NCBI GenBank assembly: GCA_016806715.1
Contig: CP060531.1
Location: 1,039,966 to 1,103,965 of the forward strand
Reading direction: 5' to 3'
DNA length: 64,000 bases
DNA from: Thermoplasmatales archaeon
GTDB lineage: Archaea > Thermoplasmatota > Thermoplasmata > Thermoplasmatales > Thermoplasmataceae
The notes beneath the pieces are model-generated. The model searched no databases and had not been told where the DNA came from. It worked only from the letters and a program-made list of their open reading frames with translations. The position numbers and the translations under genes are program-made. Shown in pieces: positions 28,641 through 42,769 of the stretch. Positions within the stretch are counted from its first letter, which is position 1, and every line of letters starts with the position of its first letter.

Positions 28641-29653
28641 TTCTTGCCGAGGGTGTTTTTTCAACCACCTACGGTAAAACAGCCAATGGGCTTATCCGGT
28701 TCAGCAAGAGGTATAATGTAACTTCAGTCATAGATTCAAGATACTCCGGAAAGGACTCAGGAATGATCCTCACTGGAAAGAGCAATGGAATACCAATAGT
28801 TTCATCTCTCAGGGAAGCCCTAAAAATTGGGGCAGACACTATAGTAGTAGGAGCTGCTACTGATGGCGGTTTCCTTCCAGTGGAATACCGTCCTTTTATT
28901 TCAGAAGCCATACGATCCGGGATGAGGGTCGTGTCAGGGCTTCATGAGTTTGTTTCTGACGATCCGGAATTTTCTGCCCTTGCTGCAAAATCAGGTTCAG
29001 AGATCATAGATGTTCGAAAAATGTTCAGGGATCGAAAGGATCCGTTTACAGGGAAGATATCAGAGGTAAAGGCATACAAGATTGCTGTTCTTGGCACTGA
29101 CAGCGCGATTGGTAAGAGAACAACTGCCATTATACTAAACAACCAGATCAACTCAATGGGCAGGAAATCCGTCATGATAGGTACTGGCCAAACATCATGG
29201 ATGCAGGGTTTCCCTTATACTGTTGTGGTCGATTCAATGATAAACGATTTCATCCCCGGGGGACTGGAGAGCACCACACTGGAAGCCTGGCGAAAGGAGC
29301 GCCCGGAGTTCATGTTCCTCGAGGGGCAGGGTTCAGTTCTTCACCCAGCCTATCCCGGAAGTTTCGAGATCATAGGTGCGTGCAGGCCCGATGCAATTAT
29401 CCTGCAGCATGCTCCAGCAAGGAAATTTTTTGATGGATTTGAGGATTTTCCCATTCCCGACCTTTCAAAATATATACAAATACTTGAGCTGCTTTCAGAC
29501 AGGAAAGTGATTGCAATATCGATTAACAGGGAGAACATGACCGATATACAGGTAGATAATGAGATTGAGAAACTGGAAAAGAAGTTCGGCATACCGGTTT
29601 TCGACCCGCTTAGATCCACCAGCAGTGCAGTGTCAAGAATCCTGGCGAAATAA
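28625..29653 (+). CDS. DUF1611 family protein (DgcN-like, P-loop NTPase fold)
   Basis: About 342 residues from ATG 28625. A Rossmann-like N-terminal domain (ILTGKSNGIPIVSSLREAL, VVGAATDGG) is followed by a P-loop GTDSAIGKRTT near residue 160 and FLEGQGSVLHPAYPG, the DUF1611/COG3367 pattern related to dethiobiotin synthetase folds. Some DUF1611 members are reported as DgcN, which N-acetylates D-glutamate, usually beside an epimerase. It overlaps the PLP gene by 16 bases and touches the next gene, so the three are co-translated. A role in D-glutamate or acyl-amino-acid chemistry is inference. Confidence 0.75.
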   Translation: MDNAVILAEGVFSTTYGKTANGLIRFSKRYNVTSVIDSRYSGKDSGMILTGKSNGIPIVSSLREALKIGADTIVVGAATDGGFLPVEYRPFISEAIRSGMRVVSGLHEFVSDDPEFSALAAKSGSEIIDVRKMFRDRKDPFTGKISEVKAYKIAVLGTDSAIGKRTTAIILNNQINSMGRKSVMIGTGQTSWMQGFPYTVVVDSMINDFIPGGLESTTLEAWRKERPEFMFLEGQGSVLHPAYPGSFEIIGACRPDAIILQHAPARKFFDGFEDFPIPDLSKYIQILELLSDRKVIAISINRENMTDIQVDNEIEKLEKKFGIPVFDPLRSTSSAVSRILAK

Positions 29654-31078
29654 ATGCCACAGAGCTACGCTGAAAGGGTTATCAGTTTTGACAGGATCAC
29701 GGTTTCCGAACCTGAAATCACAACAAACAGCATTCGGGGAGATATCACAGTAACGTCGGGGGATGAGGCCAGAAAATTCAGGCTCATATTTACGTACTCT
29801 GAGCCAGTGAATGCCGATAGAAGGACTGCCGGGCTAATCCTCACGATGCCGGTCATAAACTTCACATTTTTTGCGAAGGAACTATTTCTGGATTTTCCGG
29901 TAGGGGAGAACGACATCAGACTTTTGCAAAATTTCCTCAAGATAAATGCAAGAGAGGTCTTTGTGAACAAGATCTGCCGCAGGAGATTCGAATTCATAAA
30001 AAAGGAGTATATTCCGGAAGAATCGGATATTAACCAGTCTAATTCAGATGGGATAACGCAGCTTATTGCACCTTTGAGAACGGATAGTTTTCACCACGTG
30101 AAAACCGACCCTAAATTTTCAGCAGTCCTGTCTTCCGGCGGAAAGGAAAGTCTTCTCACATACGGGATGCTCAGGGAAGCCGGCAGCAGGGTATTCTCAT
30201 TTTTCTTCAACGAGTCCGGAGGACACTGGATCACCGCGAAGACCTCTTACGACTATTTCTCCGGGAACTACAAGGATGTCCTCAAGGTCTGGTCAAATGT
30301 TGACAGGTTTTACAAATTCATGCAGAGGCGGGTAAAGATTCTTGACCAGGTTGCAGTGACTAAATGGGCCGATACATATCCCCTGCAGTTGTTCATATTT
30401 CCTGTTTACATTTTCGCCCTTGTTCCTTTTATCATAAAGTATGGAATATCCTCGATCTACATAGGCGACGAATTTGACGATCCCAGAGAAATGCCGGATT
30501 TTCATGGACTCAAGCACTACTATGGAATATTTGACCAGAGCCTGGAATTTAACAGGATGATGAGTGAATTCTTCAAGGATACAGGCATAGGATCCGTTCT
30601 CACATCCGCTGTTTATCCGATAGCAGGAAACATCGTTGAGAAGATACTTTTGCAACGGTATCCTGAACTGTTTAAGCTTCAGAGGTCATGCCATTCGTGC
30701 CATTATGAGAATGGAGGGATTGTGCCGTGTGGAAGGTGTTCTAAATGCCTTGGAATATTGATGTTCACCATCGCAGCGGGGGGAGACCCCACTAAAATAG
30801 GTTACGAGGACATCTCAACTGAAGAGCTCAGCAAACGTGTTGAATCTGAAAGGATGAGGCTTGACAGCGACGAACTTTCATACCTGAAGGAGATCATATT
30901 TGACAGCATAAAGCCAGGAGTAAGCCACGTTACTGGTATACATCTATTACCTGATGAAAAAGATCCAGGTGAGTTGATTCCGGAGATTTTCCGCGGCAAA
31001 ATCATGGATGTAATTTCCAGCTATTCCAGTGGAACCTTTTCACTGATCGATGGCGAATGGGTGCTCTCCAGGCACTGA
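29654..31078 (+). CDS. PP-loop ATP-pyrophosphatase protein, possibly MurL-related
   Basis: A 474-residue protein with a 150-residue N-terminal domain and a HUP-type ATP-pyrophosphatase core starting at SGGKES (161-166). It is followed by NESGGHW (186-192), a YIGDEFDD acidic segment and a Cys cluster C-x2-C...C-x2-C-x2-C that may bind zinc or iron-sulfur. This layout recalls MurL, which epimerises L-Glu in a peptidoglycan precursor with ATP. The organism appears to lack a murein wall, so the substrate must differ. It starts on the base after the DUF1611 stop. The PP-loop call is solid; MurL kinship is tentative. Confidence 0.6.
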   Translation: MPQSYAERVISFDRITVSEPEITTNSIRGDITVTSGDEARKFRLIFTYSEPVNADRRTAGLILTMPVINFTFFAKELFLDFPVGENDIRLLQNFLKINAREVFVNKICRRRFEFIKKEYIPEESDINQSNSDGITQLIAPLRTDSFHHVKTDPKFSAVLSSGGKESLLTYGMLREAGSRVFSFFFNESGGHWITAKTSYDYFSGNYKDVLKVWSNVDRFYKFMQRRVKILDQVAVTKWADTYPLQLFIFPVYIFALVPFIIKYGISSIYIGDEFDDPREMPDFHGLKHYYGIFDQSLEFNRMMSEFFKDTGIGSVLTSAVYPIAGNIVEKILLQRYPELFKLQRSCHSCHYENGGIVPCGRCSKCLGILMFTIAAGGDPTKIGYEDISTEELSKRVESERMRLDSDELSYLKEIIFDSIKPGVSHVTGIHLLPDEKDPGELIPEIFRGKIMDVISSYSSGTFSLIDGEWVLSRH

Positions 31079-31158
31079 TCAGTACTATTATTGAAAAGAT
31101 TGTATTTCAGGCAAATCTTCCGGCAATGATGAATCAACACGCGTCGTTGGAAGCCCAG

Positions 31159-31440
31159 TCACTTTTGATCCTTTTCGTCCTCATCGAAGGCACCAAAATT
31201 GAAACCTGCGTTCATGTACGTATTCTTTATCTTATTTATGCGTTCGCTCCTTGCAGAATAATCTTTGCGGTTGGTATCCCGCCTCTGTTTCTTAAGGTTA
31301 CGCAAGATTTCCTTCTTCTCAAGAATCTGTGAATTCAGTTCATCAACTGTAGACCCCAGGATTTCATCGAATCCAGGCGCGGACGTAATACCCCTCTTCT
31401 TCATTCTCAGAGCTTCCTTCAGATCCCTTATCTCCCTCAT
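31159..31440 (-). CDS. Small coiled-coil protein, function unknown
   Basis: A 93-residue, highly charged, helical protein with heptad-like leucines (VDELNSQILEKKEILRNLKK) and an acidic C-terminus ending EDEKDQK. No domain is recognised. Codon use resembles neighbouring genes and no larger frame competes. It lies convergent to the PP-loop gene. Confidence 0.5.
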   Translation of the reverse strand: MREIRDLKEALRMKKRGITSAPGFDEILGSTVDELNSQILEKKEILRNLKKQRRDTNRKDYSARSERINKIKNTYMNAGFNFGAFDEDEKDQK

Positions 31441-31626
31441 GGTTTTCCTGATAGAAGCGAGTTGAGACGCTTTACTATACCTGATTTTAATATTTCTCCC
31501 TCGGTAGATAAAACATGCCGTGACGAATATTAATATTGTGGGTCAAAACCCGGGAAGTCCTAACATGCAGTTTATATGGCAGTCCACAAAAATTCGGTCT
31601 TATCAGGCATCATAGCAGATTTGCGC

Positions 31627-32136
31627 TCATTCTTTTTTGTTCAAGGGGAAATACTCATTTTCCATGATCTTCACCTGATCATCAGTCTGGCACTCTGAGT
31701 AGTCCGTCAAGGGGTTTTTGTTAAGGACAAGAAAGTTCGGCCCCCACTTGAACTTGTCGAGGATTTGAACCGCAAGACCTGTATTCCCTGTTATGAAAAG
31801 GGCTGCAGCCAGGGCTTCCACGGATGAGAGTATCTCAAGTTTTCCATAATTAACGGGGTTTGCAGCCAAGAGGGCAGGGACTCTTCTCCCATTTTTTATT
31901 CTTAATCCGGAAATCCCCTCTATTTTGGCCCATGACCCATCAATAACATTGATCCCGTATCTTGAGACTAAAACAGAGTCTGTTTTCTTGATATATGTGC
32001 TCCCATATGGCGTCAGCGTGACTTTACTGCCTATGCTCCTGGCATTAATCCTTTCTGCCAGCCCCAGGCGTTCAAGCTTCTTCATTGTGGACTTTGAAGG
32101 GTCATCCTCACTAAGGTAGACAAATGTTACCTTCAC
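31627..32136 (-). CDS. tsr3: 16S rRNA aminocarboxypropyltransferase Tsr3 (DUF367)
   Basis: A 169-residue enzyme that transfers the aminocarboxypropyl group of SAM to a modified uridine in the small-subunit rRNA decoding region. Typical segments are SVLVSRYGINVIDGSWAKI, RRVPALLAANPVNYGKLEIL, SSVEALAAALFI and FKWGPNFLVLN. The usual Cys before SW is replaced by Gly here. The gene is divergent from the ECF transporter genes. Confidence 0.88.
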   Translation of the reverse strand: MKVTFVYLSEDDPSKSTMKKLERLGLAERINARSIGSKVTLTPYGSTYIKKTDSVLVSRYGINVIDGSWAKIEGISGLRIKNGRRVPALLAANPVNYGKLEILSSVEALAAALFITGNTGLAVQILDKFKWGPNFLVLNKNPLTDYSECQTDDQVKIMENEYFPLNKKE

Positions 32137-32328
32137 GGTTGTGTATCACAACTCCATTATTATTGCTAGAGCATAAACGGTACAGTATCATCTCAAATGC
32201 GTTGCCTGGAAGCACGCTGATATATTCGCTATAGGCAGCAACCGGTAAATACTGCTCCTTGACAGTAAATTGTCAATCATTAGAAAGTATTAAGCCACCC
32301 TCCGATAATATCCAGCTACTGGTGGAAG

Positions 32329-33015
32329 ATGGTGCAGAATTCTGATAAAATGCAAACGGAAAGCAAGCAGAATAGCGGGAAATCCGGCAATTACTCGAGA
32401 TATACCCTGAAGTGGAAGGGATCAGGGAAGGTATCAACAACGCAATATGCTCTATACGCCATCCAGATGGCAGTAGTTATTCTCCTTTCATATCTGGGAG
32501 CACTCTACACTCCTGTTGTTGGCCCCGGAATAGGGTTTCTATACTGGGCATATCCGTTCTTCGTTGTCTTTACACTCTGGTGGGGAATTTGGGGGATACT
32601 GGGTGCATGGGTTGGTAGCGTTGTGGGTGCTGGATTGCTTACCGGACTCCCTCCGATTGCGGCCCTGGGATTCAGTATAGGAGACTTTATTCCGGCGCTC
32701 CTGATTTTCCTGGTCTACAGGGGATATCTTTCCCATCATGGCGTGGATCCACTTGGCAGGGACATACTGAAAAACGCAAAGTCCGCGTTCTGGTTCGTTT
32801 TCTGGGTCATGGGAGTTACAAATATCCTTGGTGGTCTGTGGGGAGTATGGGTTTTAGTACAGCTTGGTTTCGTTCCAGCGAATGCTTACTGGCTTGGTGC
32901 TAGCCTCTGGATAATAGGGGATGCAGTGGTACTGGTCATAGCCCCATTCCTGGCTGCTACAATAACTCCTATCGTGGAAAGGTATGGACTGGTAAATACT
33001 GGCTGGGTAACCTGA
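32329..33015 (+). CDS. Probable ECF transporter S component (substrate-binding membrane protein)
   Basis: A 228-residue protein with a 35-residue basic cytosolic head and about six membrane spans, rich in Gly and Trp (LWWGIWGILGAWVGSVVGAG). Size, topology and position just upstream of EcfT and the ECF ATPases make it the likely S component that binds the imported compound. The family cannot be named. The ligand is probably a nucleobase or related compound, judging from the phosphoribosyltransferase fused to the ATPase downstream. Confidence 0.6.
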   Translation: MVQNSDKMQTESKQNSGKSGNYSRYTLKWKGSGKVSTTQYALYAIQMAVVILLSYLGALYTPVVGPGIGFLYWAYPFFVVFTLWWGIWGILGAWVGSVVGAGLLTGLPPIAALGFSIGDFIPALLIFLVYRGYLSHHGVDPLGRDILKNAKSAFWFVFWVMGVTNILGGLWGVWVLVQLGFVPANAYWLGASLWIIGDAVVLVIAPFLAATITPIVERYGLVNTGWVT

Positions 33016-33451
33016 TCAACCTCCCACACTTTATTTCTGTGAACGGGAAAACTTCTTCCAAAATGGTATATGAGAGCCATAGAAGCATAATTGAATACTT
33101 TATATTCAAATTAAGAACAGGAGCTTATTACTTGTAACCCCATGTGATCATGCAGGCTTATGTACAGCCTTTTCACCTGCCTCAGGGAGAATAGGTATGT
33201 TGAGGCTGGCAAGAAGCTCAACACCTTATTAAGGAAAGTATCAGGGAACACCCATTGAAACATCGATTAAGCTCACGAGGGAAGGATAGTTCACTATGAG
33301 AAGATTTAATTTTCCCCGAGCGATTACTATAACGGGGAGTCGAAACAGATTAAATATCCAGAAGGAATGAATCTTCAACCGATCCCGCAAACCAATAAAT
33401 CGGTGCAATAAACGAATAATCACCTTAAATCCCCCTAATGAGGAAAGTAAG
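33016..33451. other. Spacer between S-like gene and ecfT with possible gene remnant
   Basis: A 436-base gap. From about 33160 the plus strand encodes a short frame (MYSLFTCLREN...) that is interrupted by stops but continues in frame to about 33400, suggesting a decayed coding segment. No RNA structure, promoter or known element is clear. It separates the S-like gene from ecfT more than expected in an operon. Confidence 0.35.
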
Positions 33452-34270
33452 ATGACTAACAACCGTGAAGAAAAAAGATATGTTAAGACAATTCTGTTCA
33501 CTGCTAGGGCCGAATCGTTTTATGTAAGGCTGAACCCACTGGTAAAATTCACCTTTCTCATATTGATTTCCATTGGCGTGGTTTTATCCATGGACCGGGC
33601 AGTACCGGACCTTTATTACAACCTTGGCGCTCTGATTTTCGCGTGTATTTTCCTGACGGAGTCTGGAACGATAAAATATCTGGTTAAAAGCTACCTTGTT
33701 ATGCTTCTGGTGGCATTGTTCATAATGCTCCTCTGGTGGTTGGTGTTCAACCAGGTTGGAACCAATCCTATATTCGTCCTTAGCGCAGGAAGCTTGCATT
33801 TCCAGGTCACAAGTCTGTCCATTTATGTTGGGGTGGGAAAGGTTACCGGATATGCGGCTATGGCATTTCTCACGCTGCTGACAATGATGACCACAAGAGA
33901 CGCAGACATAATCTCTGCCCTGAGGAAAATAAGGACACCATTCAAGGCAGTATTCTTCGTGTCGATTGTATCAAGAAGCCTGAATATTCTATCAGACGAT
34001 CTTGAAACAATAAGGCAGGCACAGATAGCAAGGGGGAGCAGAATCGGAAAGTTTGGGATTCTTAACCATATCCGTGAATTCATAATGCTTGCAGTTCCTC
34101 TCACTGCATCCATAATACGAAGGTCAGTCGAAGTTGGCGGTGCAATGGAGGCCAGGGGTTTCTCGAAGGTGAAAAACTTTACCGGATTTGTGGACGAGAA
34201 GGACTTTCGATGGTACGATGGTGCGATGCTTGCTCTGGGTGCCGCAATGGTGATGGTTCCACTTTTGTGA
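33452..34270 (+). CDS. ecfT: ECF transporter transmembrane component EcfT
   Basis: A 272-residue membrane protein of the EcfT/CbiQ family, which couples ATP hydrolysis to movement of the S component. The two diagnostic Ala-Arg-Gly motifs are at 193-195 (AQIARGSR) and 234-236 (AMEARGFS) in the cytosolic coupling helices, and the N-terminal FYVRLNPLVKF leads into the first spans. The ATPase gene follows after 10 bases, confirming one transport operon. Confidence 0.9.
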   Translation: MTNNREEKRYVKTILFTARAESFYVRLNPLVKFTFLILISIGVVLSMDRAVPDLYYNLGALIFACIFLTESGTIKYLVKSYLVMLLVALFIMLLWWLVFNQVGTNPIFVLSAGSLHFQVTSLSIYVGVGKVTGYAAMAFLTLLTMMTTRDADIISALRKIRTPFKAVFFVSIVSRSLNILSDDLETIRQAQIARGSRIGKFGILNHIREFIMLAVPLTASIIRRSVEVGGAMEARGFSKVKNFTGFVDEKDFRWYDGAMLALGAAMVMVPLL

Positions 34271-34280
34271 TCTGATAGAA

Positions 34281-36887
34281 ATGGATGCAGTTGTAATTAA
34301 GGACTTTTACTGGAAATATCCAAACTTTACTGGAATAAGGAACGATTACGTACTTAAGGGAATAAACCTGACAATCAGGGAGGGTGAATTTCTAGGAATT
34401 ACGGGAAGGAGCGGTAGCGGTAAAACAACATTGTGCTTCTCTATTGCAGGTCTCGTCCCACATCAGCTCAGGATACCAGATCATGTCGAGGAACACATGT
34501 CAGGAAGCGTTGAGGTATTCGGGGAACTTGTAAGTGGCGTGAAAAAGGCTGCCAACGGATACGAACTGGACGGTGTCGGGTCAATGGCTCCGACGGTTGG
34601 TTTTGTAATGCAGGATCCGGAGAGCCAGTTCCTGAGCATGAGCATGTTGCACGAGGTTTCGCTCGGTCTGCAGATGATGGGACTTGACAAGGTTGAGATT
34701 AATAAGAGGATAACTGAGGCCCTGGACATGGTTGGGCTGGGTCAATACCGGGACGTAGCCGGCAGGATACATCCCGCTGAACTTTCCGGGGGTCAGAAGC
34801 AGAGACTTATAATCGCCAGCTTCCTTGCAATGCGCCCCAAGTTGCTGATCCTTGATGAACCAACCTCGGACCTTGATCCTGCGGGGAAGCTTGAGGTGAT
34901 GAAGACAATTGCCGACCTGAGGAAGAAATCAAACATGACCATAATCCTTGTAGAGCACAACCCGGACGTAATGCTGAAGTTTGCTGACAGGATAGCAGTA
35001 ATGTATGGTGGAAAGATTGTTCAGATCGGCAAGCCACTTGAACTTTACAGCAAGCCAGATATCCTGAGAGAATACAATGTTTACCTTCCAGACGTATCAG
35101 AGCTATCCGATTATTTTTCACTGGACGAAACCCCCAAGTTCCAGCTGGAGAAAAGCAGCTTCGTACCGGAAAGAAAAACGAGAGCCAGGACTGACCGGAT
35201 CATAGACGTCAGGGGAGTTTCTTTTTCATATCCTGATGGGACTAAAGCCCTTGATGGAATAACCTTGGAAGTGGAAAAAGGGGAGATGATAGCCATTGTC
35301 GGCCAGAACGGCTCCGGAAAGAGTACCCTGTCAAAGGTGTTATCCGGCATAGCAGCTCCTTCCGGAGGGGCCGTGAACATAGCCGGTCTTTCCGCTAACA
35401 GCAGGTCGGAAAGAAGGAAGCTCCCTCTACATGTGGGGTATGTGTTCCAGAATCCGGATCACCAGATATTTACCAGAACCGTGAAGGATGAGCTCTATTA
35501 CGGTCTCAAAAACATAGGCGTGAAGAGGGCAGATGCCGAGGAAAGCATAAATTCTGTCCTGGCAAGGGTAGGACTTTCCGACAAGGCTAATGAGGACCCA
35601 ATTTTCCTGGGCAGGGGCCAGAAAAGAAGGCTTGCGGTTGCAAGCAGCATAATAATGAAACCCGAGATCCTCATAGTGGACGAGCCCACAACCGGTCAGG
35701 ATTACAAGATGTCAAGAGACATCATGGACCTCCTGACTGAACTAAACCTGCAGGGGACAACTATACTGATAATAACACATGACATGCGTCTTGTCGCAGA
35801 GTATTGTAGAAGAGTTGTTGTCATGAGCAAGGGAACTCTTGTGTTCGATGGTACTCCGGAAAAACTCTTCATGGAGGACGACATCCTTGCTGTTGCATCG
35901 CTCTCTGAGCCCCAGTCGGTGAGGATGTCCAAGGAACTTGTCAGGCAGGGATTCCTGAGGAAGCCTCTGATAAGCGCCAGAGAGTGGCTTCAGTTCTTTA
36001 ACTTCATGAGGCTCAAGAGTGGATTTGAGTTCAGCACTTACAGCGAAATGGACATTATGTCACGCTCACTCATTGACACGATCATTGAGAAGAGGGGGAA
36101 ACCGGCTGCCCTCGTATACATTGAAAGAGGGGGAATGGTTCCAGCATTTCTCATTCTGAGCAAATTTCCGGACATAAAAACGTACCGGATTCGTGCAAGT
36201 TATTATTCTGATGTGGGCACGGCAAGCAAAGATGTTGAAATATATAACATTCCAAATGATTTATCCAGGTTGAAAAGTGGCTATATACTGCTGATTGACG
36301 AGATAGTTGATACAGGGAAGACCATGCTGAGGATTCGGGATGAGCTGAAGCCACGGGTCAGTGTGGATATAGTGACTGCATCAATTTTCCTGAAGAAGCA
36401 GTCCGCGTATACCCCTGATTTCTATTCAAAATTGGTGGAAAGTGATGTATGGATCGTCCTTCCATATGAGAAGAATGAGACAATCCACAGTGTAGGAATA
36501 AAAAGGCCGGAGGAGCTTCGGCACGTGACTGGGATGTTCGACGGAGATACGAGTGACTATGGAAAAATTGATGAATATTCAAGAAGAGTCGCGGAAAAAA
36601 TAAGGGAAATGTCATGGGAACCAAAGATCATAGTTTACAAATTGCCGGAATCCATGCTTTTCGCCAGGATCCTCTCAGATGCCCTCCGAGTCAACAATGT
36701 TGCTGGTATATCAACAGCTCAGGAAGTTGGAGAACTTGATCTGGGAGACACTGAAGGAGTGATACTTCTCGTCGCCTTGCAAATGACCGGTGAAATGGAA
36801 GCTATAAAGGACGAGCTCTCTTCTTACGGAAAGGTTGAGTTAATCACGCCTGGGTTTGAGACCGCAGACGCGTACAGGACGGGCTAA
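34281..36887 (+). CDS. Fused ECF ATPases A1-A2 with a C-terminal phosphoribosyltransferase
   Basis: A single 868-residue polypeptide. The first ATPase has Walker A GRSGSGKTT (42-50), signature LSGGQKQR (168-175) and Walker B LLILDEP (188-194). The second has GQNGSGKST (341-349), a degenerate signature LGRGQKRR (443-450) and ILIVDEP (463-469). From about 575 a phosphoribosyltransferase domain follows: YIERGGMVPA (613-622), the PRPP loop LLIDEIVDTGKT (670-681) and WIVLPYE (724-730), as in hypoxanthine/guanine-type enzymes. About 100 further residues form an unassigned alpha/beta tail. The polypeptide would import a base and turn it into a nucleotide at the membrane. Confidence 0.85.
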   Translation: MDAVVIKDFYWKYPNFTGIRNDYVLKGINLTIREGEFLGITGRSGSGKTTLCFSIAGLVPHQLRIPDHVEEHMSGSVEVFGELVSGVKKAANGYELDGVGSMAPTVGFVMQDPESQFLSMSMLHEVSLGLQMMGLDKVEINKRITEALDMVGLGQYRDVAGRIHPAELSGGQKQRLIIASFLAMRPKLLILDEPTSDLDPAGKLEVMKTIADLRKKSNMTIILVEHNPDVMLKFADRIAVMYGGKIVQIGKPLELYSKPDILREYNVYLPDVSELSDYFSLDETPKFQLEKSSFVPERKTRARTDRIIDVRGVSFSYPDGTKALDGITLEVEKGEMIAIVGQNGSGKSTLSKVLSGIAAPSGGAVNIAGLSANSRSERRKLPLHVGYVFQNPDHQIFTRTVKDELYYGLKNIGVKRADAEESINSVLARVGLSDKANEDPIFLGRGQKRRLAVASSIIMKPEILIVDEPTTGQDYKMSRDIMDLLTELNLQGTTILIITHDMRLVAEYCRRVVVMSKGTLVFDGTPEKLFMEDDILAVASLSEPQSVRMSKELVRQGFLRKPLISAREWLQFFNFMRLKSGFEFSTYSEMDIMSRSLIDTIIEKRGKPAALVYIERGGMVPAFLILSKFPDIKTYRIRASYYSDVGTASKDVEIYNIPNDLSRLKSGYILLIDEIVDTGKTMLRIRDELKPRVSVDIVTASIFLKKQSAYTPDFYSKLVESDVWIVLPYEKNETIHSVGIKRPEELRHVTGMFDGDTSDYGKIDEYSRRVAEKIREMSWEPKIIVYKLPESMLFARILSDALRVNNVAGISTAQEVGELDLGDTEGVILLVALQMTGEMEAIKDELSSYGKVELITPGFETADAYRTG

Positions 36888-37050
36888 TCATAGATTCAAT
36901 CATGCAATGGAAAAAAAGGATTCCAGCCAGGAAAGAAACTATCAAAAAGGTTAAGTTTTCTCTACCTGGGGTTTATAAAGGAATTCCCTGAATTTAACTG
37001 CCCGAAACCAGTTCGAGAAAAATTAATTAGTGGTGTTAGTCTTATCTATA

Positions 37051-38679
37051 ATGCGATATATTGTTATAACTGGGGGCGTCCTTTCAGGATTAGGAAAGGG
37101 CACAATAACATCCAGCCTTTCTCATTTATTGGAGTCCAACGGACTCAAAGTAACGGCTATGAAGATTGATCCTTACCTGAATTATGATGCCGGAACAATG
37201 AACCCTTACCAGCACGGAGAGGTATTTGTTCTGGATGATGGGAGCGAAGTGGATCTTGACTTAGGGAATTACGAGAGATTTCTCGATACAAACCTCAACG
37301 CGGACAACAACATTACTACAGGAAAAACCTACCTGGAAGTGATAGAGAAAGAACGCAGGGGAGATTACCTGGGAAGCACAGTCCAGATCATTCCCCACAT
37401 AACTAATGAAATCAAGAGAAGGATAAGGAAAGTTGCGACTACCGGCGACATAGATGTTGTCATGATCGAGGTTGGAGGGACTGTGGGAGATATTGAATCA
37501 ATGCCTTTCCTTGAAGCCCTGAGACAACTGAAGCGGGAGGAAAAAGAAGGGTCGGTATTGTTCGGTCACGTGACCCTTATTCCCGCCATTGGATCTGTGG
37601 ACGAGCAGAAGACGAAGCCGACACAGCACAGCGTTAAACAGCTTCGTGAGATCGGGATACAGCCAGACATCCTGTTCTGCAGAACCAAGAAACCACTACT
37701 CGATGAAACCATCAAGAAGCTCTCACTGTTCACTGACGTACCTGAATCGGGAATAATAAGTGTATCCGATGTGCAGAACGTATACCTTCTTCCGGAACTG
37801 ATGGAGAAACAGGGACTGGTTAAATATGTCGCTGAAAAGCTTTCCCTGAAGTTGAATCAGCTCGAGGATACCTGGAAAAAATACAAAGAAAACATCCGCA
37901 ACCCTGCAGAGACAGTAACAATAGCAGTGGTAGGGAAATATATCCAGCTGCAGGATGCATACATCAGTCACAAGGAGGCATTTTCACATGTTTGTGGAAC
38001 TACGGGAATAGGCGTGAAATTGAAATGGGTGGATTCAGACGATGTGGTTAAAAACCCGTCAATTTTTGACGATGTAAACGGGATACTCATTCCAGGAGGG
38101 TTTGGATACCGTGGAATTGAAGGCAAGGTTGCTGCTGCGAGGATGGCCAGGGAGAAAAAAATCCCATTCCTGGGGATATGCCTGGGTTTCCAGGTTGCAG
38201 TGATAGAGTACTCCCGGAATGTCCTGAAGCTTGAAAAGGCGAACAGCACTGAATTTGACCTGAACACAAAATATCCTGTTATAGATATATTGCCAGAGCA
38301 GAAAGGCGTCACTTCCATGGGTGGAACCATGCGGCTTGGATCGAAACTTGTCAAGGTAAAGGGCAACACACTTGCCATGAGCATATATGGTGAAAAAACC
38401 ATAAATGAAAGGCACAGGCACAGATTTGAGGTTAACCCCTCTTACATAGACAACCTAACCGAAGCAGGAATGATATTTTCAGGCGTGGACGAGGAAGGAA
38501 TAAGGATGGAGATACTGGAACTTGCCGACAGGGATAATTTCATAGCCACTCAGTATCACAGTGAGTTCAAGTCAAGGCCGCTGTCACCATCAAAGGTTCA
38601 CATTCATCTTGTGAAAAAAGCTCTTGAAAACAAGCTGGGACGGAAAGACAGCATCGATGCGGAAAAAATAGTGAACTGA
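37051..38679 (+). CDS. pyrG: CTP synthase
   Basis: About 542 residues that aminate UTP to CTP using glutamine. The N-terminal synthetase domain begins [17 protein letters not shown] and contains [15 protein letters not shown]; the C-terminal glutaminase domain has the Cys nucleophile in FLGICLGFQ and the His-x-Glu pair in [12 protein letters not shown] 37051 starts directly on the conserved strand, so the GTG at 37030 is not used. It follows the ECF-phosphoribosyltransferase gene on the same strand with 163 bases between, consistent with a nucleotide theme. Confidence 0.96.
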
Positions 38680-38705
38680 ATGTCATCGATTTCGGTGATT
38701 CTCTG

Positions 38706-41700
38706 ATGGCAGCTTCCGCAGGAATTTCCCTGAAAGATTATCAGGATGGAATACGCGAAAGGGTACAGGAATGCTATGATCTTGCAAAGAGGATCAGGGC
38801 GCTCGGAAAAGATGTGACGGATGAGGTCGAGATACCACTTGCATCTGATATGGCGGACAGGATAGAGGAACTCCTGAAAATCAAGGGTGTTGCGGAGGAC
38901 ATCCGAGCCGCAGCGAAAGAGATGACCAGGGAGGAGATGAGCATCTTCATCTCCAGAAAGGTGTGCAAGATTTACGAAAAGGAGGGTAAAGTAACTGCTC
39001 TGGATAAGTCGGTCAGAACAGGGCTAGCCATACTGACAGAAGGTATCCTGGTTGCCCCTCTTGAAGGTATTGCGGAGATTACGGTAGACTCAAACCCGGA
39101 TGGGACTTCCTATGCATCCATATTCTACTCAGGGCCGATACGTGGAGCAGGGGGCACTGCCCAGGCTATGAGTGTTCTCATTGCTGACATCGTCCGCAGG
39201 GACCTTGGCATAGGGTCTTACGTGCCGTCGGAAGAGGAGATCGAGCGATACGTCGAAGAGGTTCAAAGCTACAATCGGCTGAAACATCTTCAGTATCTGC
39301 CTTCTCCGGAGGAGATCAGGACAGTGATAAGCAACTCTCCCATATGCATTGACGGTGAGGGAAGCGAGGAGGAAGAGGTATCCGGCCATCGCGACATGAA
39401 CAGGGTGAGAACAAACAGGATCAGGGGCGGGATGTGCCTGGTTCTATGCGAGGGGCTTATCCAGAAATCAAAAAAGATCTTGAAGTACACGGGAAAACTC
39501 GGTCTCAACGAATGGGAGTTCCTGTCAAAAATAGGCAAGGAGTCCGGAGATAAGGAAATGTCCAAGAAACAGAGTTCCGAGAAATTCCTGAAGGACATAA
39601 TTGCAGGTCGTCCCGTATTCAGCCATCCCGGGACTCCAGGAGGGTTCAGGCTGAGGTATGGGAGGTCAAGACTCTCCGGCCTGGCTGCGGCATCAATTCA
39701 CCCCGCAACGATGCGCATACTTGGGAACTTTATTGCCAGCGGTTCACAGATAAAGGTAGAACTTCCGGGCAAAGCGGCAGCCATAACTCCATGTGATACT
39801 ATTGACGGACCCACGGTCCTCACAAAGGGTGGAGACCTTGTCAAGATAAGAACGGTAGAGGAGGCAATTGCCGTGGATAATAACATCCAGGCAATCACGG
39901 ATGTCGGTGAGATACTCATAGCCTATGGGGACTTCCTGGAGAACAACAGGCAGCTGGAGCCATCACCGTTTGTGCGGGAGTGGTGGCTCAAGTATACAGA
40001 TAGCATCCCGGATCTTCAAAAATACCAGAATGAAAAGCCTGACCAATTCACTGCCATAGACATATCAAGAAAATACAAGGTACCACTATATCCAGAATTT
40101 GATTATCTCTGGCATGACATAACGGCAGAAGATCTCAGGTACCTGATCAATGTCGTTGGCAAAGGATCATTCACCGACAACTCCCTCGTTTTACCGTTTT
40201 CAGAACAATTGGTGAAAATCCTAATTAGCCTTAACCTTGAGTTCAGGAGAAAGGATTCTGCCATCATTCTCCATGAATACTATCCCCTTGTCGTGTCGTG
40301 CGGATATGATCTGTCTGGAGGGTCACTGGTACAGGTCAGGGAGCTTCCTGGCAATGGCACAGTGGTTGAGATGGTAAGTCACCTGTCAGGACTGGACATC
40401 AGGCCGAGGTCCCCGACACGTGTCGGCGCAAGACTGGGAAGGCCAGAAAAGGCCGGGGAACGGCAGATGAAACCGAAGGTTCACGTCCTGTTCCCGCTGG
40501 AAAACAACGGACAGAACAGGAGATCCATAATTGCTGCCACAAACAATGCCTCCAATGGTTACGAGGCCGAAATATTTTCAAGGCGCTGTCTCACATGCAA
40601 CAATGAGACCCCGCTTCCGGTGTGTGAGCAATGCGGTTCCCACACAATTCCGGTTGGAACGAAGAAAATGAAGATCAATATACAGAAAATAATGGAAAGC
40701 GCAATGTTGCAGATGAATACCGACCCATCCGCGATAAAGGATATCAAAGGGGTCAAGAAGCTCATGTCCGCAAAGAAGGTGTGCGAACCCCTGGAGAAGG
40801 GTATACTGAGGTATCTCAACGCTATAACTATAAACAAGGATGGAACGTGCAGGTACGATATGTCGGATATCCCGATAACACACTTCCGGAGATCCGAAAT
40901 TTCCGTATCGTCATCGAAGCTCAAGAGTCTCGGATATGAAGATTGTGACCTCAATGAGATTTTCCCGCAGGACATCATCATACCAGATAACGCTGCAGCG
41001 TATCTTCTCAGGGTAGCCAAGTACGTGGACGATCTCCTTGTAAACTACTACAAGACCGAGCCTTTTTACATGTGCAGGACGAAAGAGGACCTCATAGGGC
41101 AGCTTGTTATCGGGCTGGCTCCACACACCTCAGGCGGAATCGCCGGGAGGATAGTCGGGTTCACTTCCGCAAGCGGATGCTATGCACATCCATTCTTTCA
41201 CGCTGCAAAAAGGAGAAATTGTGATGGGGACGAGGACAGCATAATGCTTCTCATGGACGGCCTGATAAACTTCTCAAGGGAATACCTCCCATCAACGCGT
41301 GGAGGACTTATGGACGCGCCACTCGTGTTAACGGTCAGGCTCAACCCGGACGAGGTCGACAAGGAGGCAATGAACCTCGACACCCTGGCCTCATATCCGC
41401 TTGAATTCTATGAAGCAACAGAGCGACACGATGTGCCTTCGAAGATCGAGAAAATCATGAGACCTATGAAAGTAATGATGGAGGAGACCGGCACGTACAG
41501 GAACTGTTCGTTCAATTTCGACACTGCGAGCTTCAATGACGGGACGCTGGTCTCGGCTTACAAAACCATAGGGTCCATGGAGGACAAGATCGAGAAACAG
41601 CTTGATCTAGCCAGAGTCATAAGGGCCGTTGATGCGGACGATGTTGCAGCAAGGGTGCTGACCGCGCATTTCCTTCCGGATATATTTGGAAATTTCAGGG

Positions 41701-41993
41701 GGTTCTTCACCCAGGAATTCAGGTGCACAAAGTGCAACGCAAAATACAGGCGGGTCCCCCTCTCCGGAAAGTGCCTGAAATGCAAGAACAACACAATAAT
41801 ACTGACGATACACAAGGGCAATATAGTGAAGTACCTGGATGAGACCATCAAGATTTCAAAAAATTTCAGGCTGCCTGATTACCTGAACATGAGGATAATT
41901 AACATGGTGGACACCATAGAGAGCACCTTCGAGAAAGAGGAGAACGCTGTCAGAGGGCTCGAAAAATTTGAGGAAGAAGTTGAGGAAGAATGA
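38706..41993 (+). CDS. polC: DNA polymerase II (D family) large subunit DP2
   Basis: A 1,095-residue catalytic subunit of the archaeal replicative PolD. Landmarks are GPIRGAGGTAQA near 140, the catalytic NCDGDEDS (about 838-845) and two zinc clusters, CLTCNNE...CEQCG near 640 and CTKC...CLKCKN near 1015-1035. No intein interrupts the catalytic motif. DP2 works with DP1 (not in the window) and PCNA, whose loader subunit rfcL is at 0.6 kb. It overlaps the GPN GTPase by 4 bases and lies 26 bases after pyrG. Confidence 0.97.
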   Translation: MAASAGISLKDYQDGIRERVQECYDLAKRIRALGKDVTDEVEIPLASDMADRIEELLKIKGVAEDIRAAAKEMTREEMSIFISRKVCKIYEKEGKVTALDKSVRTGLAILTEGILVAPLEGIAEITVDSNPDGTSYASIFYSGPIRGAGGTAQAMSVLIADIVRRDLGIGSYVPSEEEIERYVEEVQSYNRLKHLQYLPSPEEIRTVISNSPICIDGEGSEEEEVSGHRDMNRVRTNRIRGGMCLVLCEGLIQKSKKILKYTGKLGLNEWEFLSKIGKESGDKEMSKKQSSEKFLKDIIAGRPVFSHPGTPGGFRLRYGRSRLSGLAAASIHPATMRILGNFIASGSQIKVELPGKAAAITPCDTIDGPTVLTKGGDLVKIRTVEEAIAVDNNIQAITDVGEILIAYGDFLENNRQLEPSPFVREWWLKYTDSIPDLQKYQNEKPDQFTAIDISRKYKVPLYPEFDYLWHDITAEDLRYLINVVGKGSFTDNSLVLPFSEQLVKILISLNLEFRRKDSAIILHEYYPLVVSCGYDLSGGSLVQVRELPGNGTVVEMVSHLSGLDIRPRSPTRVGARLGRPEKAGERQMKPKVHVLFPLENNGQNRRSIIAATNNASNGYEAEIFSRRCLTCNNETPLPVCEQCGSHTIPVGTKKMKINIQKIMESAMLQMNTDPSAIKDIKGVKKLMSAKKVCEPLEKGILRYLNAITINKDGTCRYDMSDIPITHFRRSEISVSSSKLKSLGYEDCDLNEIFPQDIIIPDNAAAYLLRVAKYVDDLLVNYYKTEPFYMCRTKEDLIGQLVIGLAPHTSGGIAGRIVGFTSASGCYAHPFFHAAKRRNCDGDEDSIMLLMDGLINFSREYLPSTRGGLMDAPLVLTVRLNPDEVDKEAMNLDTLASYPLEFYEATERHDVPSKIEKIMRPMKVMMEETGTYRNCSFNFDTASFNDGTLVSAYKTIGSMEDKIEKQLDLARVIRAVDADDVAARVLTAHFLPDIFGNFRGFFTQEFRCTKCNAKYRRVPLSGKCLKCKNNTIILTIHKGNIVKYLDETIKISKNFRLPDYLNMRIINMVDTIESTFEKEENAVRGLEKFEEEVEEE

Positions 41994-42769
41994 TAGGATC
42001 ATTATTTGTAACAGGGCCAGCTGGCACTGGAAAATCGACATTTTGCGGATCGTTCAAGGAGTGGCTTATTCAGCAGGGTTATGACGTTGTAACAGTCAAC
42101 CTTGACCCCGGATCAGAATATATGCCGTATAATCCAGAAATTGACGTCAGGGAGTACATCTCCCTGCAGGACATAATGAGCCAGTATTCTCTGGGGCCAA
42201 ATGGAGCACAAATCGTGGCTGCAGATCTGCTGCTCGAGAATGTTGAGAAGATCGAGTCCCAGATCAAGGAACTGCAGGATTATTACGTGATATTTGACAC
42301 CCCCGGGCAGATGGAACTCTTCACCTTCAGGCAAGGCAGCACGATGCTTGTCGACAGGCTTTCGGGCGGAAAGGGAATGCTCGCATTCATCGCGGATTCG
42401 GTCGTATCTTCAACACCATCCGGGTACATTTCTCAGAAGATGCTGTTTGCATCGGTTATGTCAAGGTTTTACAGGCCAATGCTCTTTGTGATGAATAAGT
42501 CTGACCTTGTGGACGAGGAAACAATGCTTATGCTGGAGAAGTGGGAAGAAACTCCGGATTTACTCTACGAAGCCTTCATGAATGAAAAACAGGAAATGGT
42601 AAAGGACTATTTTTCAGGAATGCTGGAGGCATTCAAGTCAAGCGACATGATCACAAAGCTGTTCCCGGTATCCTCCAGGGATCTTATCGGCTTCGAGGAC
42701 ATCTATTCCGAGATGTCAGTTTATTTTACCGGTGGAGAAGACGCAGACACACTCTACAGGGATGACTGA
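41990..42769 (+). CDS. GPN-loop GTPase
   Basis: A 259-residue GTPase with P-loop GPAGTGKST, the defining Gly-Pro-Asn insert in SLGPNGA, switch DTPGQMELF and base-recognition NKSD. Eukaryotic relatives (Npa3/GPN1) help assemble RNA polymerase II; the archaeal role is uncertain. Its ATG overlaps the DP2 stop in ATGA, so the two genes are translationally coupled. Confidence 0.93.
   Translation: MIGSLFVTGPAGTGKSTFCGSFKEWLIQQGYDVVTVNLDPGSEYMPYNPEIDVREYISLQDIMSQYSLGPNGAQIVAADLLLENVEKIESQIKELQDYYVIFDTPGQMELFTFRQGSTMLVDRLSGGKGMLAFIADSVVSSTPSGYISQKMLFASVMSRFYRPMLFVMNKSDLVDEETMLMLEKWEETPDLLYEAFMNEKQEMVKDYFSGMLEAFKSSDMITKLFPVSSRDLIGFEDIYSEMSVYFTGGEDADTLYRDD

Follow-up and report, generated by a model that had tools for sequence, protein, structure and literature searches.

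The locus described here raises the question of what the motor of a membrane transporter does with a phosphoribosyltransferase (PRTase) fused to its end. It lies in a window of 64,000 nucleotides from a genome identified as that of the acid-loving archaeon Ca. Scheffleriplasma hospitalis. In culture, this archaeon hosts the nano-sized Ca. Micrarchaeum harzensis as its obligate symbiont (PMC8975820). Both partners of this co-culture carry the operon, which bears on the purine supply of genome-reduced DPANN symbionts and makes it a specific candidate for that supply, present in host and symbiont alike. The symbiont of this co-culture has been reported to have incomplete DNA and RNA synthesis and few transporters (PMC8975820). 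All window genes and motifs given by position below lie on the forward strand.

A predicted ECF transporter operon with fused ATPases

The EcfA-EcfA'-PRTase fusion (34281–36887) encodes 868 amino acids in one open frame starting with ATG. Its first ABC ATPase domain (34281–35150, about residues 1–290) carries Walker A GRSGSGKTT, Q-loop MQDPESQ, signature LSGGQ, Walker B LLILDEPTSD, and a VEH switch. The second (35193–35960, residues 305–560) has a signature that aligns as LGRGQ in the window protein and LSRGE in most relatives. The chain matches Pfam ABC_tran twice (185 bits) and exceeds the NCBIfam cut-offs for both ECF_ATPase_1 (TIGR04520, 421 bits against 315) and ECF_ATPase_2 (TIGR04521, 430 bits against 330), with residues 308–561 as the best stretch for both. 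The ECF ATPase pair in one chain described in the initial annotation is confirmed.

The gene ahead of the fusion had been read as EcfT, and this assignment holds. Its 272-amino-acid product (33452–34270) is a member of the CbiQ family (PF02361, 89.5 bits against a cut-off of 25) and contains two ARG motifs: one at 34028–34036 (residues 193–195), with A193 and R194 invariant in the alignment, and one at 34151–34159 (residues 234–236), with A234, R235, and G236 all invariant.

Further upstream, a putative S component (32329–33015) of 228 amino acids has six main predicted helices. Helix 1 contains the sequence A44-I-Q-M-A48 (32458–32472), in which both alanines are invariant in 12 homologues, conforming to the AxxxA motif that docks S components onto EcfT (PMC11109136). 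The protein is 63–82% identical, in the same gene order, in every complete-operon genome, and wherever its gene was found intact, EcfT and the fusion are its neighbors. The earlier description of an S-like gene is thus supported by the motif and by conservation with the operon, but not by family membership, as the protein has no match in Pfam, NCBIfam, or PHROGs. Its structural model is poor (pLDDT 57), and the top PDB matches, although S components (5edl and 4dve), are non-significant (best Foldseek E 0.4). The missing family match and the weak model count against the importer reading given below.

The operon resembles the dedicated group I ECF importers of S-T-A-A' organization (BioMNY, CbiMNQO) in its CbiQ-family EcfT with two ARG motifs, its paired ECF-type ATPases, and its adjacent small membrane protein with AxxxA. 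It differs in that the ATPases form one chain ending in a PRTase, the S component falls outside the known families, and the likely substrate is a purine base. A separate ECF system in two genomes (L074 and L075, from G285 and G324) consists of a complete S/two-domain ATPase/T operon without a PRTase, located in L075 among transposase-like genes. Like the window operon, it has two EcfA domains per chain beside S and T genes, but its ATPases are very distant in the ATPase tree.

We know of no ECF transporter described for a nucleobase, and of none whose motor carries a fused metabolic enzyme. The initial annotation made the same claim for this fusion, and it stands within an open-access literature library: no account of this architecture as an ECF-nucleobase or ECF-PRTase system, a group-translocation system, or an archaeal fusion was found there. 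A survey of fusions (PMC11237513) likewise does not describe it.

The phosphoribosyltransferase domain and its proposed role

The C-terminal part of the fusion matches Pfam Pribosyltran (PF00156) at 36063–36461 (residues 595–727, 47–50 bits against a cut-off of 26.3), and the type I PRTase extends over about residues 590–742. The pyrophosphate loop YIERGGM (36117–36137, residues 613–619) has RGGM invariant in 20 sequences. The PRPP loop LLIDEIVDTGKT (36288–36323), which the initial annotation had placed at residues 670–681, is indeed there, with D..DTGKT invariant across the same number of sequences. A purine-site strip, K705..S..PD..W724..YE730 (36393–36470), includes the previously noted WIVLPYE segment (residues 724–730); its K, S, PD, W, and YE are invariant in 20 sequences, and it aligns with LKPWS..PDFY..WIIFPWDK of Sulfolobus GpT-2 (4z1o).

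Structural modeling agrees with these assignments. The AlphaFold model of residues 559–868 is confident (pLDDT 86, pTM 0.84) and reveals the PRTase core expected after residue 560; its top PDB matches in Foldseek are Sulfolobus HGXPRT (E 1.2e-11, target-normalised TM 0.79–0.82). Among solved sequences, the closest are those of Sulfolobus GpT-2 (4z1o, E 6e-14) and a Pyrococcus purine PRTase. Fold, PRPP loop, pyrophosphate loop, and flexible loop identify a type I PRTase, and the closest structures, together with the K..PD..W strip at the base site, place it with the 6-oxopurine enzymes. The domain shares its fold, both loops, and this strip with archaeal 6-oxopurine PRTases (S. solfataricus GpT-2/HGXPRT, 4z1o and 5bqo; Pyrococcus, 1vdm), but is only about 20–26% identical to them, is joined to transporter ATPases, and is trailed in two lineages by a degenerate second copy. 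Because it scores under all equivalog cut-offs, among them those for XPRT and HGPRT (NF006613, 45.6 against 138 bits; TIGR01203, 27 against 150), the identity of the base is not fixed. The PRTase is complete, with all catalytic loops conserved over 20 sequences, and is predicted to be active.

The degenerate PRTase-like domain (36507–36884, residues 743–868) has lost RGG and DTGKT, and is restricted to the Scheffleriplasma and Micrarchaeum-A lineages. It aligns with the PRTase in hhalign (probability 95.5, E 1.6e-8), and its origin is still visible when AIAYENPQALVQARLLSDRLGVKRLLPV of L083 is compared with AIIYIERGGMVFGRLLSDYFGVSRLYGI of the free PRTase of L101. Speculatively, the degenerate copy may act as a built-in dimer partner.

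Taken together, the three genes probably form a dedicated ECF importer for a 6-oxopurine base whose motor carries a base-trapping PRTase. The S component would bind the base outside, topple, and release it inside, with EcfT linking the S component to the fused ATPase pair. The C-terminal PRTase would then use PRPP to convert the incoming base to GMP, IMP, or XMP, which would be trapped. Uptake itself, the base, the reaction, and membrane-bound trapping are inferences. The earlier proposal of coupled import and phosphoribosylation is partly supported, on the enzymatic side by the PRTase fold and conserved loops, and in its import half by operon context and motifs. Still, as a hypothesis, an import-and-trap role for a purine appears well supported. 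The result would parallel NCS1 or NCS2 permeases working with soluble HGPRT, APRT, or XPRT, in which base uptake is followed by trapping as a nucleotide; there, however, uptake is ion-driven and the enzyme separate, whereas in the window system ATP would drive uptake and the enzyme is covalently attached.

A stronger form of this proposal, which we offer tentatively, is ATP-driven group translocation: the base would pass from S through EcfT to the tethered PRTase, so that import and conversion are physically coupled, and the machine would have moved between the host lineage and the Micrarchaeota symbionts, in which it would serve to take up guanine from the shared surroundings or from the host.

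A different role for the PRTase domain, as a regulator rather than a trap, would have it sense PRPP or a purine nucleotide and gate the ATPases. Domains added to the C-terminus of importer ATPases usually serve regulation, as in trans-inhibition through the MetN C-terminal domain, and the degenerate second copy could bind a ligand without catalysis. The PRPP-like site in HPRT is, moreover, shared by (p)ppGpp (PMC6783271). Conservation of every catalytic loop over 20 sequences argues against regulation, as do the intact PRTase domain retained in one family, f4, which has no S and in most genomes no T, and the lack of another candidate 6-oxopurine PRTase in M. harzensis. We consider a regulatory role rather unlikely.

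Purine metabolism and the likely substrate

Gene content in the symbionts bears on the cargo of the proposed importer. PurC (SAICAR synthase) and PurA (adenylosuccinate synthetase) are each found in none of the seven operon-bearing Micrarchaeota, compared with PurC in 10 of 10 Thermoplasmata; these and the absences below are firm in M. harzensis only, the other Micrarchaeota carriers being incomplete MAGs. Convincing IMPDH is also absent from the operon-bearing Micrarchaeota, where matches are short and at CBS level only. An NCS2 permease was not found in any of them, and an NCS1 permease is lacking in six of the seven, M. harzensis included in both cases. The sole NCS1 cytosine/purine permease gene among them adjoins the operon in L106 (5161–6696, reverse strand). 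For a related ARMAN-2 organism, missing purine and pyrimidine synthesis has been reported (PMC5498576).

Only three proteins of M. harzensis have the PRTase fold. Besides the fusion, these are APRT and PRPP synthetase, so the conversion of guanine to GMP would fall to the fusion. M. harzensis could therefore make AMP from adenine and, via the fusion, GMP from guanine. This, with no sign of an IMP-interconverting enzyme, favors guanine; for a 6-oxopurine importer, it is the most likely cargo, with hypoxanthine or xanthine possible. The Micrarchaeota symbionts, which lack PurC, would obtain guanine nucleotides mainly through the importer-PRTase. The host retains an intact de novo purine pathway, alongside which the system would serve for salvage. 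Counting against the importer reading, a further XPRT-like enzyme (L001) and an NCS1 permease are encoded by the host; the permease overturns the idea that it lacks any other nucleobase permease. Two further nucleotide-related genes lie close by, in keeping with the proposed role: a CTP synthase gene adjoins the operon in the window, and in Micrarchaeum a convergent thymidine kinase gene lies just behind it.

The transporter might instead import something other than a purine, such as another base, a nucleoside, or a vitamin-like compound, with the PRTase using either the imported compound or some unrelated substrate. Known ECF substrates are mostly vitamins or metals, and the ligand is not readable from the sequence of an S component that belongs to no known family. 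This alternative is nonetheless improbable, given that 6-oxopurine enzymes are the nearest PRTases in both sequence and fold, that the K..S..PD..W strip at the base site is invariant, and that the Micrarchaeota carriers are without purine synthesis markers. The initial annotation had left the choice between a purine and a pyrimidine base; fold, motifs, and tree favor the former.

Distribution and exchange between archaeal phyla

The fusion was searched for in 400 genomes of the class, followed by a scan of named genomes. It is present in a second genome of the same genus (G237, 74% identity over the C-terminal 310 residues) and, in the 400-genome search, in two further families of the order, f3 and f4. 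The survey of other Thermoplasmatales proposed in the initial annotation thus recovers the fusion, and the operon extends beyond them to Micrarchaeota. The Micrarchaeota carriers are Ca. M. harzensis A_DKE (L085, complete genome), L083, L088, L101, L104, L105, L106, and L117; several symbiont genomes labelled Marsarchaeota are counted as Micrarchaeota here, given the grouping of their sequences and a genome size of just 0.6–0.7 Mb. The order S, T, fusion is common to Scheffleriplasma relatives, f3, and seven Micrarchaeota genomes. In L104, the contig ends inside the fusion. The distribution is patchy: in G143, a different species of this genus, S and T are both absent and the only PRTase is a distant one.

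Several relatives of individual components were also observed. In one group of Micrarchaeota, the fusion is immediately followed by an intact PRTase gene that stands on its own (L101:10630–11184, L104:1298–1897, L105:10582–11181, and L117:4043–4645). Another Micrarchaeota protein, of 541 amino acids (L116:3020–4645), has a 270-amino-acid N-terminal part followed by two tandem PRTase-like stretches. A distant S homologue in G012 (29% identity, E 1.9e-6; L079:204–761) is immediately followed by a further membrane protein with multiple predicted helices; it was set aside, as no EcfT or ATPase gene was seen in the 8 kb examined. Searches of viral contigs found no relative, and searches of plasmids found none of the S component.

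Family f4 departs from the common arrangement. Its loci (L040:7156–9417, L041, L043, L045, L049, and others) encode ABC-ABC-PRTase proteins, and no S component was found in the family. A CbiQ-type T is missing from 11 of 13 genomes, and the other two have a separate complete ECF system. A DapA-like aldolase gene lies downstream of the fusion, and in most cases a divergent MFS gene lies upstream. In two genomes (L038:7216–9426 and L039:6720–8936), the ABC1 signature (now LPLWK) and the Q-loop are lost while the PRTase is intact, as if the ATPase half were decaying; this apparent loss of signature and Q-loop residues also speaks against the importer reading. A supposed S-component pseudogene in the f4 genome G303 (E 1.3e-4, five stops) was rejected, as it is antisense to a 551-amino-acid tRNA-synthetase-like ORF with the HIGH-type motif GPLHIGHARM (pairwise tblastn E 0.014).

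As the f4 fusion occurs without S and mostly without EcfT, the protein can persist without its transporter. This is the strongest contrary fact and weakens obligate transport coupling. It also gives some footing to a soluble, non-transport role for the ATPase-PRTase chain, with the S and T genes as incidental partners, as do the gene neighbors of the f4 fusion, a DapA-like aldolase and in many loci an MFS gene. In the ATPase tree, which has no firm root, f4 groups with f3 at 83/78; because f3 has the complete operon, the loss of S and T in f4 looks derived, with modest support. The S-T-A order is conserved across two phyla with all parts under strong purifying selection, and a soluble role is accordingly very unlikely.

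The evidence for selection comes from dN/dS. In Micrarchaeum pairs, values are 0.02–0.05 for S, T, and the ATPases and 0.05–0.07 for the PRTase; in the window–G237 pair, they are 0.03–0.05 for S, T, and the second ATPase domain, with synonymous sites saturated for the first ATPase domain, the PRTase, and the C-terminal part. S, T, the ATPases, and the PRTase are under strong purifying selection. The degenerate second domain in Micrarchaeum has a dN/dS of 0.16–0.21, indicating weaker selection and faster evolution.

Identity between the window and M. harzensis is 75% for S, 58% for T, and 57% for the ATPase-PRTase chain. A concatenated tree of S, T, and the fusion joins the host and Micrarchaeum lineages at 100/100, apart from other Thermoplasmata, and a topology that forces Thermoplasmata into one group is rejected (p-AU 3e-5). 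A tree of the ATPases alone gives the same picture with weaker support (83/99). These phylogenies indicate that the operon crossed phyla. In the unrooted PRTase tree, the fusions fall in a single clade (100/97); since its free-standing members are all Micrarchaeota-type, the tree hints that the PRTase came from the Micrarchaeota side. The fusion itself is real, conserved, and horizontally shared: an assembly or annotation artefact, as separate genes in relatives would have implied, has a negligible probability because about 28 independent archaeal genomes carry the same fusion, including the finished M. harzensis chromosome, and the window genome is complete in a single contig.

An Rfam scan of 29000–42500 was empty at E 0.1, so no known riboswitch accompanies the operon. 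Bacterial-type promoter and terminator scans, whose models are not apt for archaea, gave results near chance. Elsewhere in the window, a 474-amino-acid protein (29654–31078) without a Pfam or NCBIfam match is conserved in G237 (L078:4169–5593). It contains an SSGGKES PP-loop-like motif and CxxC pairs and is possibly a PP-loop ATPase.
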